Source of the DNA: Rhodospirillales bacterium
Lineage (GTDB): Bacteria; Pseudomonadota; Alphaproteobacteria; Rhodospirillales; JAPHRK01
DNA length: 64,000 bases
Direction: 5' to 3'
Assembly: GCA_026196105.1 (NCBI GenBank)
Contig: JAPHRK010000033.1
Location: forward strand, 62,001 to 126,000
Both the position numbers and the translations under genes were made by a program. Within the stretch, counting starts at the first letter, position 1, and each line of letters opens with the position of its first letter. The notes beneath the pieces are model-generated. The model was not told the DNA's origin, ran no database searches, and saw only the letters and a program-made list of their open reading frames with translations. This document shows, piece after piece, positions 51,495-59,411 of the stretch.

Positions 51495-52241
51495 TTACGT
51501 CTCTAATCGTCCCTGCACTTCATCGAGCAATGTGTAATAGGCCCGAGCAGGTGCGCTCTTTGGGGCGTACTCACCTACAGGCGTTCTGTGGACACCCATT
51601 TGTTCAACAAAGCTACTGTTAGGGATGGCGGTTTTGAGGACATCTGGATAGCTCTCGTGCAGGCCACTGACAATATCGCGATGCAATTTGCGGCGCCGGT
51701 CCATCATGGAAAAGAAGGGCATAATTTTCAGGTTTTTAAAACGCCGCGACTGGCAAAACTCTGAAACTTGCTCCAGTGTCCTTAAAGAAAGTGTTGTCGG
51801 GATCACCGGAACCAAAAGCACATCAGCCGCCCTTAGGACGTTTTCCGATACCAAAGACATACTTGGGGGGCAATCGAGAAAGATGTTTTCGTACTCTTCC
51901 TTTAAAGGAGAGAGAAATTTATCAAAACGTTGGGTACGATTTTTGTGATCGCCGAGGAACAGGTCCATATTTCGGTAGGAAAAATCGGCTGGAATAACGT
52001 CTAAATATTCAAAATCACTGCCTTTGATAAACTTTTCGGCGCCTTTCTTGTTGCGGAAGAGTTTCTCTCCTCCGCCTTTGATCTTAGGTTTTACTCTAAA
52101 ATAGTATGTTGCGGCACCTTGAGGGTCGATGTCCCAGAGAAGAGAACGCGAGCCTGTTGTGGCAGAGCAATAAGACAAGTTAACGGCTGTGGCTGTTTTG
52201 CCAACGCCCCCTTTGATTTGGAATATGGCAAAAACGGTCAT
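51495..52241 (-). CDS. ParA-family ATPase
   Basis: A protein of 248 residues. The deviant Walker A motif KGGVGKT (10-16) with the signature lysine, DIDPQGAATYY and NIFLDCPPSMS (Walker B region) place it in the ParA/MinD positioning family. No parB or parS is adjacent. The gene overlaps the CHAD gene by 4 bp (ATGA), so the two are coupled. ParA proteins of this type without ParB often position cellular cargoes. A role in distributing polyphosphate granules is inferred from the CHAD partner. Confidence 0.9.
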   Translation of the reverse strand: MTVFAIFQIKGGVGKTATAVNLSYCSATTGSRSLLWDIDPQGAATYYFRVKPKIKGGGEKLFRNKKGAEKFIKGSDFEYLDVIPADFSYRNMDLFLGDHKNRTQRFDKFLSPLKEEYENIFLDCPPSMSLVSENVLRAADVLLVPVIPTTLSLRTLEQVSEFCQSRRFKNLKIMPFFSMMDRRRKLHRDIVSGLHESYPDVLKTAIPNSSFVEQMGVHRTPVGEYAPKSAPARAYYTLLDEVQGRLET

Positions 52242-53872
52242 TGCTTTGCCTCCTTTGAAGGCTGTTTCTCAGCTGTGATTTTTATGGGGCGATTACAAAG
52301 CTGTTTAAATTGTTCAAGGTTTGCAGGAGAGGCAAATGAAGTGAAGCGATCATAAAATTGATTGCGAACATCTACTTTGCGACGCATGAAACCATCAACC
52401 AACATACCCATGGCCATGAGGGTCTCTGATTGATGTCCCCCTTCAGTCATCATGTCACGTCCAAACTCTTTTAAAGAGGCCGCCTGGACATCTAAATCTT
52501 GGAAAACCCCTAAGTTGTCTTGTAAAATCTTAAGGGATTTAACCAGGCCTTTTACTTGTTGCTCTTTATAAAGGCTGGCAAAGAACTCAAGTAGGTAACG
52601 CAGTTTTTTGCAGGTCTTGCGCAGATCATGCAGTGCTTCGGCTGGCGTGTCATTCCCAATAGCAGAACCTTCACGAATAACCCGACGATAGGTTTTCCAA
52701 ATGCGTTGGTCGGCAGTAGTTCTTACCGATATACCTGCTGTTTCTGGAAGCCCGAGAGGGGGTGATTTTTGGTTAAGGTATGTGTGCCAATCATTAATAA
52801 ATTTTTTGAAACGAGCTGAGCGTAAATTCTTAGCCAGGATGCGTTGTTGTTTTTTCTGATGGGCAACGAGGTAATCATGCAGTGGCAGAATATCTTTTTG
52901 AGCATCATCGCTTAGGCTGTCACGGTATTTGGGAAAGTCCAATAGGTAGACATCCATATCCCTTGTGGGTCCGGTTACTTCACCAACCCAGGCAAGGTCC
53001 GTTGAAAACCGATTTAGCACCTCGTCAGGGAAGCTGTCTTTAATCCGGTTAATTAAGGAACGTGAACGACGAACAGCAACTCGGAGGTCATGAAGAAATT
53101 CTGAGTCTAAATCTTTAATTGTGCCATCAACATTTCGCTCAATATGGGCCAGTTGCACCAAGAGGATTTGTCGGCAGGCGTCCCAAGTTCCCTGGGTAGG
53201 TTTCAGAATAGCAGCTTCTTTGGAGCTGTAATCAAGGGGACGGCGTCCAATCTTCTCGAAGGCCTGCTCCATCAATAGGTCATCAACGGGTTTGAGGCCT
53301 GGGACCGTTTTAAGTTTGGCACGTGCTTTGCGGAAATTGGCGCTATAGCCTCTAACTGCCTCCAACCTCAGGCGGTATCCTAAATCATCGAATGACTTGC
53401 TGTCTTGAGAGCGTAATTTATTTTTCTCTAAGGTAAAGCGAACAACAGTTTTACCAAGTTCATCAAGGATAACTCCCGCTCGTTCCTGGGTCACCACTTC
53501 AGCTTTGAGAGAAAGGCTTCTCATTTCCAATAAAGAGGTAACCTTATCGCGGATAAGTCCTGTGGGAAAATCTTCAGCCAAGAGGGGTGCTTTTTTAACT
53601 TGCACCCTTAATTGCCCACCGGGACTGTCTGTTGAATTTATCCAATGGAGCCAAGAAGCTTTCGCATCTTTTTCACGAAGGAGGACCAGCTTGGTTCCGG
53701 CTTCGAAGAGGCGCCAATCGAAAGTTTCCAAATAAGTACGTGAGTATTCTGAGGTCGCTTTAGAGGATGTTTCCCCACCTAATGCCACGGTAATTTTTTC
53801 GTTAAGGGCTTTTCCATCAAGGGCACTTCCATCGGAAGCACTGACGGCAAAGAACTGTGAATTATCAGTCAT
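52238..53872 (-). CDS. CHAD domain protein with an N-terminal CYTH-like domain
   Basis: A protein of 544 residues. The N-terminal 200 residues have the CYTH pattern but a degenerate active site (YLETFDWRLFEAGTKLVLLR with few charged tunnel residues). CHAD follows (about 240-530) with HDLRVAVRRSRSLINRI and HDLRKTCKKLRYLLEFF, whose conserved basic and His residues bind polyphosphate. CHAD proteins localise to polyphosphate granules in other bacteria. Its stop overlaps the ParA start, implying stoichiometric coupling. Confidence 0.86.
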   Translation of the reverse strand: MTDNSQFFAVSASDGSALDGKALNEKITVALGGETSSKATSEYSRTYLETFDWRLFEAGTKLVLLREKDAKASWLHWINSTDSPGGQLRVQVKKAPLLAEDFPTGLIRDKVTSLLEMRSLSLKAEVVTQERAGVILDELGKTVVRFTLEKNKLRSQDSKSFDDLGYRLRLEAVRGYSANFRKARAKLKTVPGLKPVDDLLMEQAFEKIGRRPLDYSSKEAAILKPTQGTWDACRQILLVQLAHIERNVDGTIKDLDSEFLHDLRVAVRRSRSLINRIKDSFPDEVLNRFSTDLAWVGEVTGPTRDMDVYLLDFPKYRDSLSDDAQKDILPLHDYLVAHQKKQQRILAKNLRSARFKKFINDWHTYLNQKSPPLGLPETAGISVRTTADQRIWKTYRRVIREGSAIGNDTPAEALHDLRKTCKKLRYLLEFFASLYKEQQVKGLVKSLKILQDNLGVFQDLDVQAASLKEFGRDMMTEGGHQSETLMAMGMLVDGFMRRKVDVRNQFYDRFTSFASPANLEQFKQLCNRPIKITAEKQPSKEAKQ

Positions 53873-53951: not shown

Positions 53952-56564
53952 CTAGTAGACACCTTTTGTATTAAGATAAGCAGCATAGTCACGATCAGCT
54001 GTTAGAATATGATTGATTATCCATTCTTTCAAAAAAATTATGACCTCTGGGTTGTTCTTCTTATCTTTGGTTTTCTCTTTTAGATCGATTACTTGTTGCA
54101 AAAGAACTTTATGGCGCTCTTTGTGAACGTCTGTTTTTTCATAATCATAACTGGAAAATAAAGCTTCTTCTTCGCGGAAATGATAATCTGTATAGTCAAT
54201 TAAGAAATCTAAAGCGACGTGAACATCTTTCTGGCTTACACGGTTTTTCAGGGCTTCTAAGAGGTTGTTAGACATCTCAACCAATTGTTTGTGGTGATTA
54301 TCAATCAACTGGATATTGACGCTATATTCAGGCCGCCATCGCAAAACGGTCTCGTGAATTTGTTCAAAATCATTAATCAGGTTTCCACGACGCTTAAAGG
54401 CCTCAAAGAGTTTCCATAAAACAATAGGGATATCCCGGACTTCAGCAATGGGCACCCTGAAAACAACACATGGCTCAATGGCAACGGAGCTTAAGATGCT
54501 CGGCGTTGAGAACAAGACAGGTTCTTCCCCAAAGAAATCTCCAGCAAACAAGGCCTCAATAACCTCATCGCCAATCATGTGATGAGCACTACCCGTTCGG
54601 ATCAAAGTAAGAGCATTGTGATCGCAGACAGTAATAACATCGCCTTCATCAAACGTCTCGACTTCCATCTGGGCTGCAATGCGGTTTTTGACTTTGTCTG
54701 AAATGGCTTCACCAAATAGCCAAGTTTTTTCTAAGAATTCTCTGTTTTCCTGTAGCTTTGAGATATTGTCGAAAAGCTTGTTTTGTTTCACAAAGGTTCG
54801 GTAGAAACCGATGGGCATGTTGAGGGCTTGGACAAAACTAGCGGCACGGTAGGTTTCCGTTGAGAAGATTTCGTGTAGGCCGTTTAACTCTCCAATAATA
54901 GCGCCAGCCGATAGGATGCTGTTGACGCCAGTTTGGGAGTTGATGACCTCGACAGCTCCGGTGAGAATGAAGCTGACCTCCTCAATATCATGCCCTTCTT
55001 TTAAGATGATAGTTTCTGGGTTGAAGGTCACCATCTGGTTATTAAGCAGCATGCGAAGCTGGTCTTTGGCAAGATCAGGGAAGTAGGCGTTTATGATACG
55101 GGCAGCGTGACTAAATATAAATTCCTGGTTACCTGGAATTAGGATATCTTTGGTGCCAAATGGGGCTCCGGACCCGATTTCTTTTTCTTCATGGGTCAAT
55201 GGCTTTGAAGTATGGGAGAGAATGATTTTTTCTGAGATATCTTTTTTAAAATCGACGGCTGCACCGTGAATCATACCGCCGCCAACATCAATTTTCTTGA
55301 TATCAGTTGGTTCAAGATAAGATAACTTTACCTCGTCAAATAGTTCTTGCGAAACACCGGGAGCTTTCTCCTCACTGGTGATCATATTGCCCAGCACGTC
55401 TAAAGAGGCAATATCGGCAAAATGGGCATAACTTTTGTAGCCGTCTTTCCACATAGCCCTAAAGACAAAAACAGATGTTTCAACGGGATGGGGAGAGAAG
55501 ATAGGTTTAACTTCGAGGCCGTTAACGGAGTTCCATGTACCTTCTTCTAAATCCTGAATATCAAAGTAGTCCCCAAAATTTGCCTCATCATAAGACAGGA
55601 GAGCTGCTAATTTTTTGGAGACGGAAGAACGAACCAAAGGAGTGGCAAAGTATTTTACCCGGTGATCTGAGCGAATAATTGTCGTGAGGCCAGCAAAGTG
55701 ATCATCGTGGCAATGGGTGTGGAAAATACCTTCAACTTCACTAATACCAATCCCAAGAGAGTGAAGAGTTTTCTCCAAGTTTGGCCCTGCATCTACCAAA
55801 TAGATTTGCCCTTGGTACATCAACACACTGCCCATGCTAGGTCGGTTAATGTCCCAACCATCACCCTGACCAGAGTGGATAACAGCAAAGTATTCCCGGT
55901 TAACCAAATGTGACCCAAGGGGATATGGGGCCTCATAATTTTCAAATGGTTGGAGGTTTAGATCAACAGTAACAGTTTCATCTTTGTAATAGATCTCAAA
56001 AAGGTTGAGGGCAAGCCGTTGGATAGAGACCCCGTTTCTGATTTCCTGTTTGTTGGTGCCCACATTACAATGATCAAGGAGTTCAGAAGGATGGCTAATT
56101 TTCCCAAAAGCAAACTTGAGCTTCATCCGCATCAATTCTTTTGCTTTCGCTGGCTCAACGCCTGCTTCAAGAATTTCTTCTTCAGAAATTAAGCCGTAGT
56201 TGCCCCGGTAGATATATTGCATTTGGGCTGCAACCTGGTCGTCATGCCCAATAAGAAGAGGTTTAGCCCCTGTGTTTCCAGGATGGTTAGGAATGATCAT
56301 GCCCTGGCGATAAAGCATTTGCAGGACTGGGAATTCCGCTAAGTTTGCAAAGCTACCGTTTTGAATAGCAACATCAGAAAGGAGGATGGCATTCGGGCCA
56401 CTTTCATAAGAAACGCCATCAATTTCTGTTGAGGATATGAAACCACGTTTCATGAGGTGTTTGACGCTATCGCCAGGACAGCCACATTGAATTCTCAAAT
56501 CGGCTTCAGGGATATTAACCCAAAAAACTCCTGTAGTTACGCGGCTCTTCGTTATCAAAGGCAT
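53952..56564 (-). CDS. Metallo-beta-lactamase / two cNMP-binding / hemerythrin fusion protein
   Basis: An 870-residue cytosolic fusion. Residues 1-200 are an unassigned N-terminal domain with CGCPGD near residue 27. About 215-460 is a metallo-beta-lactamase fold with HTHCHDDH (282-289) and later His360, Asp385 and His434/451. About 500-600 and 615-725 are two cyclic-nucleotide-binding domains (GELNG and GEEPVLFS are the phosphate loops). The C-terminal 110 residues are a hemerythrin with DNHHKQL, YHFREEE and HKERHK, then NHILTADRDY. O2 or NO sensing coupled to hydrolase activity is inferred. Monocistronic. Confidence 0.85.
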   Translation of the reverse strand: MPLITKSRVTTGVFWVNIPEADLRIQCGCPGDSVKHLMKRGFISSTEIDGVSYESGPNAILLSDVAIQNGSFANLAEFPVLQMLYRQGMIIPNHPGNTGAKPLLIGHDDQVAAQMQYIYRGNYGLISEEEILEAGVEPAKAKELMRMKLKFAFGKISHPSELLDHCNVGTNKQEIRNGVSIQRLALNLFEIYYKDETVTVDLNLQPFENYEAPYPLGSHLVNREYFAVIHSGQGDGWDINRPSMGSVLMYQGQIYLVDAGPNLEKTLHSLGIGISEVEGIFHTHCHDDHFAGLTTIIRSDHRVKYFATPLVRSSVSKKLAALLSYDEANFGDYFDIQDLEEGTWNSVNGLEVKPIFSPHPVETSVFVFRAMWKDGYKSYAHFADIASLDVLGNMITSEEKAPGVSQELFDEVKLSYLEPTDIKKIDVGGGMIHGAAVDFKKDISEKIILSHTSKPLTHEEKEIGSGAPFGTKDILIPGNQEFIFSHAARIINAYFPDLAKDQLRMLLNNQMVTFNPETIILKEGHDIEEVSFILTGAVEVINSQTGVNSILSAGAIIGELNGLHEIFSTETYRAASFVQALNMPIGFYRTFVKQNKLFDNISKLQENREFLEKTWLFGEAISDKVKNRIAAQMEVETFDEGDVITVCDHNALTLIRTGSAHHMIGDEVIEALFAGDFFGEEPVLFSTPSILSSVAIEPCVVFRVPIAEVRDIPIVLWKLFEAFKRRGNLINDFEQIHETVLRWRPEYSVNIQLIDNHHKQLVEMSNNLLEALKNRVSQKDVHVALDFLIDYTDYHFREEEALFSSYDYEKTDVHKERHKVLLQQVIDLKEKTKDKKNNPEVIIFLKEWIINHILTADRDYAAYLNTKGVY

Positions 56565-56790: not shown

Positions 56791-57720
56791 ATGTTTATTG
56801 AGGGAAGATTTGGGCAATTTGAAATGGTGATGGATACTAAAAAAATATTCACCGATGCTCTTTTTGCGGCAAGCGATGGTACGCCAGAAAAGGAGGCGCT
56901 TGTTTGTGGTCCTGAGGCGCTTAGCTTTCAAGAATATAAACAGTTATCGTTAAAAACAGCAGGTTTCCTTGCCCAAGAAAAGAGAGTTGCTGTAGTTATG
57001 GTGAATGGCCTTCTAACTGCCCCGGTCATTCTCGGAAGCCTTATGGCGGGGGGGCAGCTCGGCCTTATAAATCCGAATTTAACGGCACAAGCTATTCACG
57101 CTTGGTTGGAATCTTTCGCTCCCACAGTCGTCTTTTGTGACACGACGACGGCACATACGGTTGTTGGGGGGGCAAAGAAAATTGGGGCAAAAGTTGTAAA
57201 CCCTGTGGTGAGTCAAGAACTTAACCAACAAACGCCTCTCGAAATCTCAGAGGTTAAAATTGAAAACTCAAACCTTCTTTTTTGTGGAAAGAACGATGAA
57301 AAGAAAGAAGTAAGTTATGCTGAGTTGGTTGCTGTCGTTAATGAGGCCAACGATAACTTTCCTGTTGGCCAGGGTGATGAAGTTCTCTTGACCGCTATTT
57401 CACATAGCCAAAAATTTGGCCTTATCTATGGAATTCTTACCCCTTTGAGTAGGTTAACTAAGGTTGTTGTCGTTCCTCAAGCTCGGGGGAGCGCCATTTT
57501 GAAATCTCTTCAAAATGACCAAGCGACCATCTTTTTAGGTGGGGCACCTCAGGTGCTTCATGACCTTATGGGGGAGCCTCTTTTCCCTGGGACAAACTTT
57601 TCTCATCTTACAACAACTTGTTTTTACATGGTGATTGGGGATGAAGCACAGGATCAAGACGACATTTTAAGGAAGTGGGCTTTAGCTACGGGTAGCTCAC
57701 TGCTTGAAGGAGAGAATTAA
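56791..57720 (+). CDS. Truncated, degenerate adenylate-forming enzyme-like protein
   Basis: A protein of 309 residues that follows the N-terminal domain of AMP-dependent synthetases (ALVCGPEALSFQEYKQL; NGLLTAPVILGSLMAGGQLGLINPNLT). The phosphate loop is lost: the position expected for TSGTTGxPKG reads LLFCGKNDEKKEV. The C-terminal subdomain with the catalytic lysine is absent, and the frame ends 1 bp from the convergent phosphatase gene. Catalysis is improbable; it may be a decoy or a decayed gene kept open. Alternative ATGs at 56824 and 56830 are possible. Confidence 0.6.
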   Translation: MFIEGRFGQFEMVMDTKKIFTDALFAASDGTPEKEALVCGPEALSFQEYKQLSLKTAGFLAQEKRVAVVMVNGLLTAPVILGSLMAGGQLGLINPNLTAQAIHAWLESFAPTVVFCDTTTAHTVVGGAKKIGAKVVNPVVSQELNQQTPLEISEVKIENSNLLFCGKNDEKKEVSYAELVAVVNEANDNFPVGQGDEVLLTAISHSQKFGLIYGILTPLSRLTKVVVVPQARGSAILKSLQNDQATIFLGGAPQVLHDLMGEPLFPGTNFSHLTTTCFYMVIGDEAQDQDDILRKWALATGSSLLEGEN

Positions 57721-57721
57721 G

Positions 57722-58942
57722 CTATTTCCGTTTGATCCATACAGCCGTAAGGTCGTCTGAGATTGGGGGGACAGCATAGGCAAAAAATTTGTCCATCAAA
57801 GCGTTTAAGGCTGTCTCATTGGGTGATTTACTAACGACTTCGTTGAGCAGGTCATTCACGCCCTCATCTTCAAGCATTTCATCGTGTTCGTTAGGGCTTT
57901 CCTGAATGGCGTCGCTGCAAAAAAAGAGTTCGCTTCCTTTCGCAAAATCAACAGTCGCCGTTGGATATTTTGAGTTAATGGATATCCCTAAAGGCATGCC
58001 AGATGGATCAAGAGGTTTAAAACTTGTTTCACCTGGGCCTTTTATAAACTGGGGTGGGCCTCCAGCAACAGCATAGTGGAGCTTGTCGTTATCAAAATCC
58101 AGATGCCCGGTGGTGGCTGTGGCATATTGTCCACGCGGCAAGGTCTTGTGGAGTCGTCTGTTTAGTTCAGATAAGTATTCGCCAGGATCAATATCTTCCA
58201 ATGATGTATTGGCAATAATTGAGTGAAGCCTAAATGTATTCAGGGCTGCAGGGACGCCGTGGCCCGTGAAATCAATGTTAATAAAAGCCAAAGCGTTTTT
58301 GTCTGGCATTTGTTGCATTCCCCAGAAATCGCCACCAAGTTCTGTTGAAGGTTCGAAAACAGAATCAATCAGGAGATTATATTTCTCTGCCATATGAGCG
58401 ATGTAGCTGGGTGAAGGGACTAAATCTTGTTGCATTTCCCGAGCAAGGCTTAGGTCATCTGCCATTCGTTTGCTGTATGCTTGAAGCTTTCGGGTGAATA
58501 TTCGGTTTTCCAGGTGAATGCGGAGACGGGCTAGAAGTTCAGCTCCATTGAGGGGTTTTGCAACTAAGTCAGTTGCACCGGCATCAAAAGCGCGGTTGCG
58601 TTCTTCTGATGAATCAAAGGCTGTTTCAACAATAACAGGTAAGTCAGCGTAAACGGGGTCGGCTCGAAGTTCTGCAAGAACTTCATAGCCATTTTTCCGT
58701 GGCATGCCGATATCAAGGATAATAAGTTCGGGATTAAACTGCGGGACAACGTGAAGTCCTTCTTCACCATCTTGTGCAAAGAGGAGATTGGTGAATCCTG
58801 CTGCTTCTAAAAACCCCTCAATCATAATTTGAGCGATTTCGTCATCCTCAATCACAAGGATGCGGCTCTCCAGTAAAGATGTAGCTAGCTCTAACCCAAT
58901 ATCTTTCCCTGGATCATCGGCTGCAATTGCGTCGTGCCCCAT
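57722..58942 (-). CDS. Response regulator with PP2C-type serine phosphatase (RsbU-like)
   Basis: A protein of 406 residues. The receiver (about 27-145) has VIEDDEI, LIILDIGMPRKNGYEV with the phosphorylated Asp, and AKPL. The PP2C domain (about 190-405) shows ELGGDFWG, FTGHGVPAALN and GGPPQF and ends with SDDLTAVWIKRK. Such proteins dephosphorylate STAS anti-anti-sigma factors; a STAS gene lies 160 bp upstream. A GGAGACAG ribosome site precedes the ATG. Confidence 0.9.
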   Translation of the reverse strand: MGHDAIAADDPGKDIGLELATSLLESRILVIEDDEIAQIMIEGFLEAAGFTNLLFAQDGEEGLHVVPQFNPELIILDIGMPRKNGYEVLAELRADPVYADLPVIVETAFDSSEERNRAFDAGATDLVAKPLNGAELLARLRIHLENRIFTRKLQAYSKRMADDLSLAREMQQDLVPSPSYIAHMAEKYNLLIDSVFEPSTELGGDFWGMQQMPDKNALAFINIDFTGHGVPAALNTFRLHSIIANTSLEDIDPGEYLSELNRRLHKTLPRGQYATATTGHLDFDNDKLHYAVAGGPPQFIKGPGETSFKPLDPSGMPLGISINSKYPTATVDFAKGSELFFCSDAIQESPNEHDEMLEDEGVNDLLNEVVSKSPNETALNALMDKFFAYAVPPISDDLTAVWIKRK

Positions 58943-59105: not shown

Positions 59106-59411
59106 CTAAGATTCAATCGGAATTTCTTCGTCAAACTTTGAAATACGTAAAATCTTATCAACTTGGCCCTGAGGGCTACGAAGAGATAAGCTGAAACCTG
59201 TTTGTACGGCTGTATCTTTGAAAAGAATAAGCATACCAAGACCGGCAGAATCCATAAACTCAAGGTTTGAAAGATTGACTGAGCAGCTTTGTGGTTTTTC
59301 TGATTGCAATGTTTTGAGCAATTCCCGAAACTTTCCATTATCAGCAAAAGTAAACTTGCCCTCTAGATGCACGTCAACTTTCCCGCCAGAGTTTGTAACT
59401 CTATATTCCAT
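59106..59411 (-). CDS. STAS-domain anti-anti-sigma factor
   Basis: A protein of 101 residues with the STAS fold. LSNLEFMDSAGLGMLILFKD contains the serine that is phosphorylated by anti-sigma kinases and dephosphorylated by PP2C phosphatases. An AAAGGGG ribosome site lies before the ATG. It is a natural substrate for the RsbU-like phosphatase next to it. No kinase/anti-sigma gene is present nearby. Similar pairs steer partner-switching of sigma factors or c-di-GMP enzymes. Confidence 0.9.
   Translation of the reverse strand: MEYRVTNSGGKVDVHLEGKFTFADNGKFRELLKTLQSEKPQSCSVNLSNLEFMDSAGLGMLILFKDTAVQTGFSLSLRSPQGQVDKILRISKFDEEIPIES

Follow-up and report, generated by a model that had tools for sequence, protein, structure and literature searches.

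GbpA and GbpB of Dictyostelium are metallo-beta-lactamase (MBL) phosphodiesterases that are activated by cyclic nucleotides (cNMPs) at two domains located downstream of the catalytic domain, as stated in the available part of a published account (PMC11988041). Apyc1 and YhfI also cleave cNMPs, with two zinc ions held by the motif HxHxDH, according to the accessible sections of their source (PMC9117128). For the sensor side, it has been reported, in the excerpt at hand, that hemerythrin gating of cyclic-nucleotide enzymes was measured in Bhr-HD-GYP and VcBhr-DGC (PMC8846402). The hemerythrin survey of Bailly in 2008 lists MCP, GGDEF, kinase, CheY-like and EAL as partners in its available sections, together with about 20 unidentified ones (PMC2556348), and neither "lactamase" nor "cyclic nucleotide" occurs in the available part of the Kitanishi 2022 text (PMC9388753). 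The protein studied here, P0001, joins an MBL domain, two cNMP-binding domains (cNBDs) and a hemerythrin in one chain, and this fusion was not recognised as described in the open literature searched, a scope that does not take in the survey by French (2008) or the first Gbp papers, where it may be listed. P0001 does not stand alone but belongs to a bacterial family of signalling enzymes that has been little described.

The window, i.e., the whole stretch of DNA analysed, is 64,000 nucleotides long, and the P0001 gene (53952..56564) lies on its minus strand as a single open frame of 870 residues, with the ATG at 56564 and the stop at 53952; full-length relatives measure 867–909 aa, and the plus strand of the same interval is rich in stop codons. 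The earlier note had described the fusion of MBL, two cNMP-binding domains and hemerythrin with no strand given, and Pfam confirmed it in the order MBL, two cNMP-binding stretches and hemerythrin, with NCBIfam in agreement for the MBL and the hemerythrin. First of all, the N-terminal domain (residues 1–225, 55890..56564, minus) was delimited by conservation, and its border is approximate. It is followed by the MBL-fold hydrolase domain (residues 226–480, 55125..55889, minus), placed by Pfam, NCBIfam and PDB profile search with approximate borders, in which Lactamase_B matches 251–297 (E 4.5e-7, 30.4 bits against a cut-off of 22.7) and Lactamase_B_2 matches 256–360 (E 2.7e-6). Two stretches pass the cNMP_binding model PF00027, the best at 512–594 (E 3.7e-14, 52.9 bits against 27.5): cNBD1 covers residues ~500–600 (54765..55067, minus) and cNBD2 residues ~620–715 (54420..54707, minus), and the solved two-cNBD region of a cGMP-dependent protein kinase (5dyk) aligns to residues 506–701 in one stretch. 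The hemerythrin domain with its seven di-iron ligands (residues 740–866, 53967..54347, minus) is matched by PF01814 at 751–862 (E 4.1e-11) and by the bacteriohemerythrin model NF033749 (117.2 bits, cut-off 84), and DcrH-Hr 2avk is its closest solved structure.

The conservation of the sites was counted in 87 family members, with the window copy included. The HTHCHDDH metal-binding motif occupies residues 282–289 (55698..55721, minus), and further metal ligands are H359 in SPHPVET (55488..55490, minus), D384 in HFAD (55413..55415, minus) and H451 in LSHTS (55212..55214, minus). H284, H286, D288, H289, H359, D384 and H451 are each kept in 87/87 members, so that the claim of a complete MBL site, made beforehand from the motif, is borne out by the intact residues of P0001 and of its relatives. 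The same can be said of the di-iron site: all seven ligands are present in P0001, and in those members that carry the C-terminal hemerythrin they are near-invariant (H758 in 47/47; H795 in 44/46, with Cys in the other 2; E799, H814, H818, H852 and D857 each in 46/46). Since the metal and iron ligands are kept across the 87 members, chance is excluded, and the architecture of P0001 is real and selected. The two cNBDs are kept less strictly. The phosphate-binding cassette of cNBD1 (residues 558–574, GELNGLHEIFSTETYRA, 54843..54893, minus) is intact in the window copy (GEL...ETYRAAS), with G558 found in 80/87 members, E559 in 59/87 and R573 in 82/87, and cNBD2 retains GEE and lacks the Arg at its expected position; as judged from these residues, cNBD2 of the window copy is probably degraded as a ligand site. 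Across the family, the cassette motif was found in 61/87 members for cNBD1 and in 43/87 for cNBD2.

The N-terminal ~200 residues, which had been left without assignment, still have none: no Pfam match lies before residue 251 apart from scattered weak ones, none consistent, and the profile search gave no PDB relative at E<=10. Nevertheless this domain of ~210 residues shows much the same degree of conservation as the MBL, and its marked residues are C27, P30, K35, H94 and RGNYGL at 120–125. In 12 family-rich genomes the 37 N-domain matches equal the core matches in number, genome by genome, and among 190 genomes of the class the N-domain was found solely in the two genomes that carry the core. 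Because the N-domain occurs only fused to the MBL in the genomes searched, it belongs to the catalytic core; its sequence distribution indicates a part of the catalytic unit, and a separate sensor role is not favoured. The structure prediction suggested earlier as a check did not help here, since both models, each built on 5 rows, were poor (pLDDT 44.2 for the whole protein and 50.8 for residues 1–479) and did not give the N-terminal fold.

The domains attached to this core were tallied in 101 members with hemerythrin, receiver and solute-binding models built from the members themselves, and Pfam was used as a check on 10 of them. The core with cNBDs carries a hemerythrin in 51/101 members and no added domain in 24/101; an N-terminal receiver is found in 10/101 and a receiver together with a hemerythrin in 1 more; a solute-binding (SBP_bac_3) input was tallied in 8/101, of which 7 are kept after L145 was dropped, its 52-residue match being too weak; and 5/101 have an N-extension of no assigned domain, as do 2 others that bear a hemerythrin. 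The very long N-extensions of L038, L163 and probably L162 and L106 were rejected as inputs, since they look like overlong frames: those of L163, L162 and L106 gave no Pfam match, and L038 was assessed visually. In the 11 members with a receiver, the acidic pair, the phospho-acceptor Asp and the Lys are kept as far as the alignment shows, apart from L099, where DG replaces DD, and the receiver joins the core via a coiled-coil-like linker. On the core tree, there are no fewer than 11 changes in hemerythrin presence and no fewer than 6 in the N-terminal input, and the receiver and solute-binding forms fall in one clade of 22, L087 excepted. When 65 fused hemerythrins were compared with 31 others, the data were compatible with one clade of fused hemerythrins and did not prove it (AU p 0.73), and thus the simplest history is one old fusion that was afterwards lost repeatedly. 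Roughly half the members have no hemerythrin, which means that it is dispensable for the core; and since hemerythrin, receiver and solute-binding inputs can replace one another, the core appears as an output module to which different inputs are joined.

A class III cyclase gene adjoins the family gene at 10/101 loci, where genome rates predict 2.0, and after clustering at 75% identity at 5/62 clusters against 1.2 expected (Poisson P 0.009). The adjoining cyclases of L028, L039, L096, L097, L101, L158, L161 and L162 were checked by Pfam or share its seed set, and those of L029 and L164 were called by the cyclase model; at the other 91/101 loci, the window's own included, no cyclase adjoins the family gene. 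The genome of the window has 8 class III cyclases, and such cyclases are found in 59/60 relatives, family-bearing or not, and in 48/48 genomes of a second class that also carries the core. Being near-universal, they make a cNMP pool likely wherever the family occurs, and their presence has no discriminating value. The most consistent arrangement is a trio of CHASE2-class III cyclase, TPR-CHAT protein and family gene (L028:2-5932, L039:3-5632, L158, L161, L162 and L164), which spans two subfamilies, the cores of L028 and L039 being 60% identical; its TPR-CHAT was confirmed with Pfam at just two of these loci, L028 and L039, and at L039 it overlaps the family frame by 48 bases. At L101 a divergent cyclase stands 182 bp from the family gene. 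At L096 (3321-5117) a class III cyclase with a 2Fe-2S ferredoxin (Fer2) domain lies 1 bp downstream of a hemerythrin-bearing member, and the two are possibly a redox-set cyclase with its phosphodiesterase.

Other signalling genes also occur nearby. Receiver-bearing genes make up 35/327 of the genes at offsets 1–2 versus 7/167 at offsets 4–5 (Fisher P 0.016, uncorrected for kinship), and clustering places a REC-SpoIIE-type gene close to the family gene at 5/87 loci, the window included, with Pfam on the window and L143. In the window itself, a REC-SpoIIE phosphatase (57722-58942, minus) and a STAS protein (59106-59411, minus) form a partner-switching pair, and L094, L109, L112 and L143 likewise have a gene of this cluster close to their family member. 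A CHAD-domain gene (51495-53872, minus) lies 80 bp downstream of the P0001 gene and overlaps a ParA-like ATPase gene by 4 bases; these two neighbours do not cluster with neighbours at other loci. On the other side, a gene for an AMP-binding (acyl-CoA synthetase-like) protein (56791-57720, plus) diverges from the P0001 gene, and its product of 309 aa is much shorter than a full enzyme of its kind. Promoter and terminator scans performed no better than shuffles. Eleven hemerythrin-domain matches besides P0001 were found in the same genome, several in frames of 798–1368 aa, which suggests much di-iron sensing.

As for the hydrolase, Apyc1 is the top match of the MBL (E 5.1e-6 with the single sequence and 1.8e-7 by profile search), and a fold search with the weak 1–479 model listed MBL-fold proteins, Apyc1 first (2.6e-7), then arylsulfatase, RNase Z, PhnP and YhfI. 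However, the Apyc1 Pfam model PF23023 reaches 24.6 bits on P0001, below its cut-off of 50, with similarity over part of the domain. RNase Z models are matched by all 54/54 family cores tested (best E 1e-12), and all these matches are far below cut-off and confined to the first part of the MBL; on P0001, TIGR02651 gives 37.3 bits against a cut-off of 292.95, over ~60 residues around the metal motif. By sequence, the MBL is nearest to the branch of RNase Z and class II cNMP phosphodiesterases, and outside both Apyc1 and RNase Z by curated cut-offs. This placement, together with the GbpA/GbpB layout, means that cNMP may be the substrate as well as the ligand.

From the GbpA/GbpB domain order, the cyclase linkage and the hemerythrin gating measured elsewhere, P0001 is read as a cNMP phosphodiesterase: we consider it somewhat probable that it is a cytosolic enzyme, with cNMP as its activator and with O2 or redox state acting as a gate via its hemerythrin. 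The N-domain and MBL would together make up a di-zinc catalytic core for the hydrolysis of a 3′,5′-cyclic mononucleotide (cAMP or cGMP). cNMP on cNBD1 would stimulate this core, as in GbpA/GbpB, so giving feedback on the cNMP pool, and the di-iron state of the hemerythrin (O2, redox or NO) would shift core activity, so that the cNMP level would follow oxygen; in the sister proteins, the same core would be driven by receiver phosphorylation or by a periplasmic ligand. We infer the substrate, the direction of regulation by cNMP, the signal sensed by the hemerythrin, the direction of gating and any sensing of NO, and no substrate residue was identified in P0001. Against this reading stand the Apyc1 score under its cut-off and the partial RNase Z matches under theirs, the loci where cyclase linkage is absent and the non-discriminating presence of cyclases, the incomplete keeping of the cassettes, the members that lack hemerythrin and the poor structure models. 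The proposal of the earlier note, a hydrolase under the dual control of a second messenger and of O2 or NO, fits the evidence and is retained as the best reading, but in amended form: the hemerythrin is one of several exchangeable inputs, the N-domain counts as core, and the type of hydrolase is narrowed.

A rather doubtful but possible alternative is that cNMP is a regulator only, and that the enzyme hydrolyses another small phosphorylated or ester substrate, such as a different second messenger, a phosphonate or sulfate ester, or a lactone. Models of arylsulfatase, PhnP-type and lactonase enzymes do match the MBL at similar low scores, the long family-specific N-domain could give the pocket an unusual shape, and Bd1971, with a cNMP domain and an EAL domain, offers a case of cNMP control over the phosphodiesterase of another messenger in the available part of its description (PMC6717892); however, the best sequence and fold matches are to the cNMP-degrading Apyc1, cyclase genes are linked to the family, and the only known enzymes found with an MBL and two cNBDs act on cNMP, as far as the consulted sections report (PMC11988041). 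It is unlikely that P0001 is a cNMP-gated nuclease of RNase Z type acting on RNA: that every core tested matches RNase Z models speaks for it, whereas the window copy scores 37 bits against a cut-off of 293 around the metal motif, and signalling inputs and cyclase neighbours do not indicate tRNA processing. Still less credible is a catalytically silent receptor whose MBL binds a ligand and which works through partners, an idea left room by the fact that core activity is itself a prediction and by the hybrid histidine kinases and receiver proteins near some loci, since a silent domain is not expected to keep all its metal ligands across two classes. An enzyme for O2, NO or peroxide detoxification or for O2 storage, with no signalling role, is the least probable, for although hemerythrins can carry O2 and flavodiiron MBL proteins and the ODP sensor are among the weaker fold matches of the 1–479 model, the motif is an invariant zinc-type HxHxDDH that is kept in members lacking hemerythrin, and other members carry receiver or solute-binding inputs.

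For the spread of the family, residues 1–495 of P0001 served as the core in genome counts (the fuller core being N-domain, MBL and two cNBDs), and the whole-genome searches were made within this phylum. The core was found in 14/60 relatives, where full-length or core-length matches were counted and the own genome is included, in 93/317 genomes of the order, in 5/385 genomes drawn from the class, own included, in 56/398 drawn from the phylum, and in 48/48 of a second class, which we take to be Magnetococcia, one of its core-bearing genomes presumably being Magnetococcus marinus MC-1. Family copies are also present in a genome taken as Magnetospirillum magneticum AMB-1, and the named relatives are Magnetospirillum and Rhodospirillaceae MAGs. 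A pattern scan of genome contigs, which covers all phyla and reaches close relatives only, gave four loci. No relative of P0001 was found in the viral contigs searched, and plasmids matched only the hemerythrin end among the matches listed (20 of 40 records). PF18509, listed as MCR and assumed here to be the magnetochrome domain, marks genomes of the order in which the core is frequent, 33/38 versus 60/279 of those without it (Fisher P 4e-15, uncorrected for kinship), six genomes with matches below cut-off being counted as without. A magnetosome requirement was rejected, because the window's own genome and many other carriers have no PF18509, 5 magnetochrome genomes have no core, and kinship is uncorrected.

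If the reading as an oxygen-gated cNMP phosphodiesterase is true, a single protein would sense both oxygen and cyclic nucleotide and degrade the latter; bacteria would then have an O2-to-cNMP switch as a counterpart to the hemerythrin switches known for c-di-GMP, and the core, with receiver or solute-binding inputs, would serve bacterial signal transduction more generally as a phosphodiesterase output module. From this family it may become clear how oxygen levels are translated into an internal signal in some bacteria that seek oxygen, and the copies in the genomes taken as AMB-1, a tractable strain, and MC-1 make the proposed function testable. A wider picture, which we regard as speculative, is that of a multi-input cNMP phosphodiesterase family, found in all magnetococci and in many Magnetospirillum-like bacteria, that would convey oxygen, phosphorelay and nutrient signals to cNMP in aerotaxis through a core with an undescribed N-terminal domain, and whose relatives may have given rise to the amoebal GbpA/GbpB.

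Among the known systems, several share a part of P0001, as far as the available sections of their sources show. Bdellovibrio Bd1971 likewise has a cNMP-binding domain that regulates a phosphodiesterase in one chain, but its output is an EAL domain acting on c-di-GMP (PMC6717892). In Dictyostelium RegA a receiver drives a cNMP phosphodiesterase, as would be the case in the receiver-bearing members, whereas its catalytic domain is of class I and no cNBD is mentioned in that part of the text (PMC11988041). Bhr-HD-GYP and VcBhr-DGC resemble P0001 in that a hemerythrin domain gates a cyclic-nucleotide enzyme; unlike P0001, the hemerythrin of Bhr-HD-GYP is N-terminal, and the outputs of the pair are HD-GYP or diguanylate cyclase domains on c-di-GMP, with neither MBL nor cNBD (PMC8846402). 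Apyc1, YhfI and Rv1339 have the HxHxDH di-zinc MBL domain in common with P0001 (PMC9117128, PMC9293780), but their solved chains of ~240–260 aa carry no cNBDs or sensor inputs. The closest layout is that of the class IIb enzymes GbpA and GbpB, cytosolic proteins in which the MBL is followed by two cNBDs (PMC11988041), and P0001 has this same order; the likeness is one of published layout. P0001 differs from them in the optional C-terminal hemerythrin or N-terminal receiver or solute-binding input of its family, in its bacterial host, and perhaps in its conserved N-domain of ~210 residues.
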